Positions 38,642 to 45,210 of a stretch of DNA of 45,210 nt are shown here, piece after piece (the stretch's first letter is position 1; every line of letters starts with the position of its first letter). The translations under genes and the position numbers were made by a program. The DNA is from Caldilineaceae bacterium. Lineage in GTDB: Bacteria > Chloroflexota > Anaerolineae > Caldilineales > Caldilineaceae. Location: NCBI GenBank assembly GCA_026989655.1, contig JALSIX010000127.1, positions 1-45,210 of the forward strand, written 5' to 3'. Below the pieces are notes generated by a model that made no database searches, was not told the DNA's origin, and saw nothing but the letters and a program-made list of their open reading frames with translations.

Positions 38642-41635
<2,994 letters not shown>

Positions 41636-41741
41636 GGGGGTCTCCTTTCGGGCTACAGGCAACCGGTGCGTGGAGGATGGCCTGGAATCTGGTCACAGGA
41701 GCCCCCCTCCAGGCCCTGGGCAGGTCCCAGAGGGGCGGGCC

Positions 41742-42665
41742 TCATGTCGGCCCTCCAAGGGGCACCGCGGTCCGGATCCGATCCACGGTCCGGCGGAGCA
41801 GGCGACGCAGGAGCACGGCCACCATCTCGTGGCGATAGGCCGCGGAGGCCCGGTGTCGGCTGGTGCGCAGGCGGGCCTCCGCCTGCGCGGCCTGGATGAC
41901 CTGTTCCACCGCCCGGAGATCCGTGGGATCCGCGCCCCGGAGGGCCTGCTCTGCGGCCGTGGCTCGGAAGGGAACCGGACCCGCCGGCCCCAGGGCAATG
42001 GTGGCATGGGCCACGGTGCCCCGCTCCGGATCCAACCCCAGGCGCACCGCCGCCCCCAGGATGGGCAGGGCCACCCCCTGGGGGCGCATGATGCGATCGA
42101 ACGCGCTGGCCTCCCCCGGCCCTGGAGGGCGGAATCGGAACGCGGTGAGCATCTGGCCGGGCTGCAGGGTGTTGCGCCCTGGCCCAGCAAAGACCGCAGG
42201 CAGAGGATGCCAGGTGTAGTCCACCTGGCCCTCCCGCCAGGTCGCGATCTGGACCTGGGCATCCAAGGCCAGGAGGCCGACGGTGCCGTCCGCAGCCGGC
42301 AGGGCATGGGCCACGTTGCCCCCCAGGGTGGCCACATTGCGTACCTGGGGGCCTCCCACCACGCTGCAGGCCTCCACCAGACAGGTGGCTACCCGGCGCA
42401 GGGTGGGGTCCCGCTCGATCCGACCGTGGGTCACCGCGGCGCCGATCTGGATCCAGGGTTCCCGGTCGTCCTCCTGGATCTGGGTCAACTGGGGGATGTG
42501 GGTGATGTCCACCAGCATCTCCACCGGGGATTCGTGGCCCAGCTCCAGATCGAGCAGGAGATCGGTGCCCCCGGCCACGATCCGAGCCCGTTCGGGATGC
42601 TGGGCCAGGAGGGCCAGGGCCTCCTCCACGGTGGAAGGGGTGTGGTAGGATCGCCAACGGGTCAT
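41742..42665 (-). CDS. FAD-binding subunit of the molybdenum hydroxylase
   Basis: This 307-residue protein is the flavin subunit (CoxM/XdhB family) that passes electrons from the iron-sulfur clusters to an acceptor. FAD-binding motifs are ARIVAGGTDLLLDLELG near the N-terminus and NVATLGGNVAHALPAADGTV in the middle; the CO-dehydrogenase C-terminal flavoprotein domain follows. The ATG at 42665 has GGAGAG upstream, while the open frame extends 48 codons further without family similarity. It is the first gene of the leftward pair, 106 bases ahead of the large subunit. No maturation genes (XdhC-like) are present in the window. Confidence 0.92.
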   Translation of the reverse strand: MTRWRSYHTPSTVEEALALLAQHPERARIVAGGTDLLLDLELGHESPVEMLVDITHIPQLTQIQEDDREPWIQIGAAVTHGRIERDPTLRRVATCLVEACSVVGGPQVRNVATLGGNVAHALPAADGTVGLLALDAQVQIATWREGQVDYTWHPLPAVFAGPGRNTLQPGQMLTAFRFRPPGPGEASAFDRIMRPQGVALPILGAAVRLGLDPERGTVAHATIALGPAGPVPFRATAAEQALRGADPTDLRAVEQVIQAAQAEARLRTSRHRASAAYRHEMVAVLLRRLLRRTVDRIRTAVPLGGPT

Positions 42666-42726
42666 GGCTCTCTCCAGCGGGTGAGCGCGGTGGCAACCGG
42701 AAACACCTGGATGGACACGGACCTCA

Positions 42727-42758
42727 ATGGATGCCAACGGTGATGGATGCCAACGGTA
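42727..42758. repeat. 16-bp direct repeat in the leader of the hydroxylase genes
   Basis: ATGGATGCCAACGGTG (42727-42742) is followed directly by ATGGATGCCAACGGTA (42743-42758). The pair lies in the roughly 220-base leader of the leftward transcript and about 60 bases upstream of the FAD-subunit start. A regulator binding site is possible. Confidence 0.6.
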
Positions 42759-42808
42759 TCGGGTATCCACGGCGACGACACGGGGGCAGGGCCTCGAGGC
42801 ACTTTTCA

Positions 42809-42826
42809 CCGGGCGGGGCGGCCCGG
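42809..42826 (-). other. GC-rich hairpin in the hydroxylase leader
   Basis: CCGGGC (42809-42814) and GCCCGG (42821-42826) form a perfect 6-bp stem with a 6-base loop, inside the long leader of the leftward transcript. A cis-acting RNA element is possible, but no known riboswitch consensus was recognised. The remainder of the 42666-42999 gap holds the two promoters and the 16-bp direct repeat. Confidence 0.3.
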
Positions 42827-44510: not shown

Positions 44511-44552
44511 GGGGCCAACCCCCTGCCATGGCCTTCGAGCCGTTCCGCTCCA

Positions 44553-44650
44553 TCCGTCTCCCGACTGGCGGGCCGGGTTCCGGCCAGGTGGAAGAGACCA
44601 CCGGGGAGAGAGACGGACACAGAGCGCGTCCCCAAGTCGTCCGCCTGGGC
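44553..44650 (+). ncRNA. ZTP riboswitch (pfl motif) upstream of purH
   Basis: The P1 stem pairs TCCGTCTC (44553-44560) with GAGACGGA (44610-44617). Next comes the conserved GACTGGCG (44563-44570), a GGCCGG/CCGGCC hairpin, and GGTGG (44587-44591) paired with CCACC (44598-44602) in the conserved CCACCGGGGAG. The 3' part is the signature CCGCCTGGGC (44641-44650), whose CGCC can pair with GGCG of the 5' part as the known pseudoknot. This element senses ZTP/ZMP, which builds up when 10-formyl-tetrahydrofolate is short, and controls purine and folate genes. PurH uses ZMP (AICAR) directly, so the context fits exactly. Confidence 0.9.
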
Positions 44651-44651
44651 T

Positions 44652-44697
44652 GGGGCAGCGAGATCGTGCCGTTCAACCGCTCTCGCTGCCCCTTTGT
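44652..44697 (+). terminator. Riboswitch-linked intrinsic terminator
   Basis: GGGGCAGCGAGA (44652-44663) and TCTCGCTGCCCC (44681-44692) form a perfect 12-bp stem with a 17-base loop, followed by TTTGT. It starts directly after the riboswitch's CCGCCTGGGC, so ligand binding can decide whether this hairpin forms. This indicates control by transcription termination. About 250 bases remain before the purH start at 44947, with nothing else recognised. Confidence 0.85.
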
Positions 44698-44946
44698 CGT
44701 GGGGGGCCGGAGAGGGCTCCATCTCCGTCTTTCGTCGGGTGCCGGGGCGGCCGCGCGAAACCCAGAACCCGGAAACCCCGTAGTGGTAGGTGTCGTGCGC
44801 CCATACAACCCTGAGCCCAACTGGATATCCCGAACCGGATCCCCGTTTGCGTGGACCCAGGCGTTCCCATCCATCCCAGACCGCGGAGTTCCCAGGCTCC
44901 GAGCCCACGCCCCGATTCCCAGATCGTCCACGCCCGGAGGTCATCC

Positions 44947-45210
44947 ATGCAGTCCGCACGCCATGCACTTCTCTCCGTCTCCGACAAGTCCGGCCTGGTG
45001 GACTTCGCCCGCCGGCTCCACGAGCAGGGATTCCGCCTCATCGCCAGCGGCGGCACCGGAAAGGTCCTGGCCCATGCGGGCCTGCCCGTCACCCCGGTGG
45101 AGGCGCTCACCGGCTTTCCCGAACTCCTGGGAGGCCGGGTCAAGACCCTGCATCCGGCCATCCACGGCGGGATCCTGGCCCGCCGCACCCCCGACCATCT
45201 GGAGGAGCTG
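44947..45210 (+). CDS. purH: Bifunctional AICAR formyltransferase/IMP cyclohydrolase, N-terminus only
   Basis: The first 88 residues are visible before the window ends. They begin the IMP cyclohydrolase (MGS-like) domain: [54 protein letters not shown] and [13 protein letters not shown]. These are the hallmarks of PurH, which catalyses the last two steps of purine synthesis in the cytoplasm. GGAGG lies seven bases before the ATG. Control by the ZTP riboswitch upstream follows from the arrangement. Confidence 0.95.

Follow-up and report, generated by a model that had tools for sequence, protein, structure and literature searches.

A ZTP riboswitch upstream of purH in a Caldilineaceae bacterium, with a terminator that abuts the aptamer

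Among the commonest target genes of the ZTP riboswitch class are purH and glyA (PMC2864571). In the ZTP switches studied so far, an invading strand on the 3' side pairs with the 3' strand of P3 and migrates through the pseudoknot strand, a passage that the ligand blocks (PMC10085676, PMC7337938). For TPP riboswitches with terminators, a covariation model lets the aptamer and the expression platform share only two nucleotides (PMC13273304).

The locus described here lies in a 45,210-nucleotide contig of a Caldilineaceae bacterium of the phylum Chloroflexota (JALSIX010000127.1, the whole of which is called the window). With the published pfl motif (RF01750; Weinberg 2010, PMC2864571) it has in common the aptamer fold, the conserved bases, the pseudoknot, the purH target and a terminator near the 3' end; it differs by a terminator that abuts P3 without overlapping it, by a short U tract and by a leader of 254 nt. 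It belongs to the same aptamer class as the C. beijerinckii pfl and T. carboxydivorans ZTP switches, and transcriptional ON control is likewise predicted, but it lacks the complementarity through which an invading 3' arm makes their terminators from P3 and the pseudoknot strand (PMC10085676, PMC7337938). In its near-zero overlap of aptamer and terminator it resembles the TPP switches, whose aptamer and ligand are unrelated (PMC13273304).

Positions 44551-44657 of the forward strand, on which all the elements below also lie, match RF01750 (ZMP-ZTP) over the complete model (1-86 of 86) in cmscan, with a score of 51.7 bits (gathering score 39) and an E-value of 5.6e-07 for a 2.2-kb stretch or 1.1e-05 for the window. 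In the alignment, the P1-J1/2-P2 part carries GACUGGCG, P3 carries CCGCCUGGGC, and a pseudoknot links the two. P1 is formed by 44553-44562 and 44608-44617 with one C-A mismatch, and P2 spans approximately 44588-44601. The P3 hairpin (44635-44651) pairs AGUC at 44635-44638 with GGCU at 44648-44651 and presents in its loop the pseudoknot strand CCGCC (44641-44645), the complement of GGCGG in the J1/2 junction (44567-44571). The initial annotation had called a ZTP riboswitch here, with all its conserved parts and its pseudoknot, and had proposed an Infernal search with RF01750 as the check; both the score and the readable elements bear it out. Besides RF01750, no Rfam family exceeded its cut-off in the window, and the CRISPR-DR24 and mir-650 matches, both below theirs, were set aside as chance. 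The 4.09-Mb genome holds a single copy of RF01750. Judged from sequence and fold, a genuine ZTP riboswitch is present, typical of its known class and placed before a known target gene, and it is predicted to bind the ligand of the class.

The target is a purine gene, and elements of this class lie before purine or one-carbon genes. An open reading frame preceded by a GGAGG ribosome-binding site starts at 44947 and gives the first 88 codons of purH (44947-45210) before the contig ends. The last 358 bases of the window (44853-45210) recur, with 3 mismatches, as the beginning of another contig of the same genome (G000:C49), and because of this overlap the two contigs probably join within purH. 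The complete gene on that contig has 508 codons and matches TIGR00355 with 636 bits against a cut-off of 528, so that the earlier assignment of purH downstream of the aptamer holds. The 3 differences in the overlap point to strain variation within the assembly. Past purH, the second contig carries an apparent ABC-transporter ATPase gene.

Immediately 3' of P3, twelve perfect pairs (44652-44663 with 44681-44692) close a 17-nt loop and form a terminator hairpin at 44652-44692. The stem alone amounts to -26.5 kcal/mol, the stable GC-rich hairpin expected of an intrinsic terminator. Among 2000 dinucleotide shuffles of 44648-44720, none gave a 12-bp stem at the end of P3 and one gave such a stem anywhere. 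The stem starts directly after P3 and shares with it at most the P3 closing base (44652), and the perfect 12-bp hairpin that had been placed about one base past the 3' motif is found much as described. Its description as an overlapping terminator has to be abandoned, as the hairpin abuts P3 and uses neither P3 nor the pseudoknot strand. Overall, the riboswitch, pseudoknot, 12-bp hairpin and purH of the initial annotation stand, and the overlap does not.

The U tract that follows is weak (UUUGUCGU, 44693-44700): the bases after the stem, TTTGTCGT, hold 5 T in 8 with a longest run of 3, which places the window among the poorer loci; in most relatives 6-7 of the 8 are T. From the terminator stem to the start of purH, the leader (44693-44946) measures 254 nt, the longest among the 32 purH loci compared, where the other terminator-bearing loci have 25-192 nt, and the GC content of 0.70 is the richest of the loci with GC values reported. 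Weak termination, and hence a small dynamic range, is possible in the window copy. A second small terminator-like hairpin of 6 pairs (44708-44727), with the tail TCTTTCGTCG, lies 15 nt 3' of the main one.

The arrangement recurs in related genomes. RF01750 is present in 25 of the 37 genomes searched in the window's family (its own genome counted), and a wider sample extends it to the families f4, f15 and f45 of the same class and to further families of the phylum. All 31 related f1 and f15 loci compared have purH 3' of the aptamer, as the window does, and the two loci examined in f4 and f45 have the SHMT gene (glyA). We scanned 69 loci for the best hairpin with a T-rich tail between -9 and +120 nt around the start of the P3 3' strand. 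In an abutting register, the terminator begins at +3 to +7, counted from that strand's first base, approximately at the last base of P3 or just beyond. This register was found in 27 of 28 loci of the window's family, in 4/4 of f15, 8/8 of f4, single loci of f45, f106 and f110 (1/1 each) and two loci of f76. An overlapping register, in which the 5' arm begins 7 or 8 nt before the P3 3' strand (ACCGCCUGGGC/GCUCAGGCGGU), characterizes all 7 loci of f66 (L049, L050, L051, L057, L061, L064 and L070). Two terminator registers thus coexist within one phylum: one family has the overlapping register and seven have the abutting one. Aptamer and terminator are common to the window and the f66 leaders, and it is the 5' arm ACCGCCUGGGC that sets the latter apart. 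Within the stems, 25 of 28 distinct arm pairs (the 28 including two from f66 loci) keep 8/8 pairs with their own partner, against a mean of 2.8 when partners are re-dealt; the abutting stems are thus true helices whose arms covary. If the distance to P3 matters, the terminator position should be kept while the stem sequence varies, as observed here. The remaining scanned loci, including L012 of the window's own family and several of f76 and f81, lack a convincing terminator and perhaps work at the level of translation.

The terminator arms of the abutting loci show no more complementarity to the aptamer than chance would give (mean z -0.16 for the 5' arm and +0.25 for the 3' arm, n = 26), and the window's 3' arm, with z 0.17, does no better than shuffled arms. 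The invader arms of f66, taken as positive controls, reached z -4.6 to -5.9 with the same method. A search of the window for an overlapping register returned, as the best helix between the pseudoknot and P3 strands and the downstream RNA, 7 pairs whose downstream side starts at 44735 and which have no terminator character. Antiterminator pairing of either terminator arm with the aptamer was rejected, none being above chance. Because its arms lack above-chance complementarity to the aptamer, the window cannot use strand displacement through P3, and the textbook switching mechanism therefore cannot apply unchanged. Moreover, in a nearest-neighbour model the complete terminator and the locked aptamer (P1, P2, P3 and pseudoknot bases held) are compatible, at -60.9 kcal/mol. 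Because the terminator forms beside the locked aptamer, a switch, if there is one, cannot depend on mutual exclusion of base pairs.

In constrained folding of the window, CCCC at 44630-44633 could extend P3 by pairing with GGGG at 44652-44655, the base of the terminator 5' arm, with A 44634 bulged. The extension amounts to -14.0 kcal/mol against a null of -7.5, and keeping it costs 3.1 kcal/mol relative to the full terminator. Relatives do not conserve it (40 compared, mean z -0.07), and among them one extension as strong as the window's is expected by chance; the pairing is possibly a chance feature, and was discarded as a general antiterminator. In unconstrained folding, the post-terminator bases 44697-44710 pair with the P1 5' strand (44553-44565). 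Such a pairing would disrupt the aptamer after read-through, and may be due to chance.

The feature conserved among the abutting loci is a terminator joined to P3 with no spacer. For intrinsic termination the terminator base must close adjacent to the RNA-DNA hybrid, and RNA lying 5' of the terminator has to exit past it. From this polymerase geometry a steric and kinetic argument can be built for the window, which we regard as probably, though far from certainly, a transcriptional ZTP ON switch where the ligand-locked P3, flush with the terminator, hinders closure of its base. Accumulation of ZMP or ZTP, the substrate of PurH and its triphosphate, would switch purH on. The ligand would lock P3 and the pseudoknot into a rigid fold pressed on the terminator base, which has to close beside the hybrid inside the polymerase; completion of the hairpin would be delayed and read-through would follow. 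Without ligand, the short P3 would open easily and the 12-bp hairpin would close. In the window alone, the 4-pair CCCC/GGGG extension of P3 could additionally retain the first four bases of the terminator. The initial annotation had taken the ON direction to follow from the arrangement; the drawn structure does not predict it, given energies that permit the terminator together with a locked aptamer. Because the hairpin abuts P3 and its 3' arm is not complementary to the aptamer, the ON logic is borrowed from the class (Weinberg 2010, PMC2864571; PMC10085676), and it also makes sense to induce an enzyme that consumes the ligand. Against gating by abutment stand the lack of simple mutual exclusion, the unconserved P3 extension, the weak U tract and the unusually long leader. 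We would extend this reading to a large group of ZTP switches, the window among them, only tentatively: that the whole group gates its terminators by position alone, with neither an invading strand nor an alternative pairing, is rather doubtful.

The sensor and its target are ordinary; the abutting expression platform is a lineage-wide and underdescribed feature. No earlier description of an abutting ZTP platform was found in a partial literature search. The element itself was to be expected; its contribution lies in a natural collection of ZTP switches from a single phylum that show two clean terminator positions. Because the accepted strand-displacement account cannot cover the abutting switches, this collection can be used to test directly how an aptamer can control a terminator when the two have at most about one base in common.

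The alternative that survives best holds that aptamer and terminator are uncoupled, the hairpin being either a ligand-insensitive attenuator or part of a decayed switch, with purH read mainly from elsewhere. The energy model, by allowing the locked aptamer alongside the terminator, is in its favour, as are the poor U tract and the length of the leader. However, every part of the aptamer is intact, and the flush position has been kept across seven families despite changes in the stem sequence, a constancy needless for an uncoupled hairpin. Furthermore, no sigma-70-like promoter was found between 43900 and 45210, the leader included. Altogether we consider uncoupling unlikely.

Control could also be exerted chiefly on translation, or by Rho acting on the long leader, with the hairpin in a minor role. 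Several f76 and f81 loci without a convincing terminator agree with this, as does L012, in which an aptamer before purH is followed directly by the ribosome-binding site. In the window, however, the hairpin is strong and approximately 285 nt separate P3 from the ribosome-binding site, which makes such control very unlikely here. The L012 locus, in the window's own family and without a terminator-like hairpin, suggests in its own right a shift from transcriptional to translational control.

A reversed logic, in which a stabilised P3 withholds its strand, favours the terminator and lets ZTP turn purH off, appears more improbable again. It was raised because in f1 and f15 the 5' arm of the terminator is often similar to the 5' strand of P3 (both with CAGUC), so that either could, in principle, be a partner for the P3 3' strand. 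The likeness is nevertheless lost without compensation in L007, L020, L035 and the family f4, and we rejected it as a functional feature of f1 and f15 for want of compensating changes. The terminator 5' arms, moreover, are complementary to the aptamer at chance level only, and it would be odd for a ligand to switch off the enzyme that consumes it.

Finally, the canonical mechanism has P3 and the pseudoknot strand invaded by the 3' arm of the terminator unless ligand blocks this. It is published for the class (PMC10085676, PMC7337938) and occurs within the phylum itself, in f66, with ACCGCCUGGGC as 5' arm and an invader z of about -5, but it can hardly operate in the window, where the 5' arm starts at 44652, past P3, the 3' arm scores at chance like its abutting counterparts, and the best competing helix is the 7-pair one without terminator character.

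As for the surroundings of the abutting switch, genes for a HAD hydrolase and a Nudix hydrolase precede the aptamer on the same strand, the Nudix stop codon lying approximately 40 nt before it. Further upstream in the window, on the reverse strand (38642-42809), the open reading frames resemble genes for a xanthine dehydrogenase-like molybdenum hydroxylase. One of them, of 1006 aa, begins like an iron-sulphur subunit and goes on like a molybdopterin subunit, and adjoins a likely FAD subunit.
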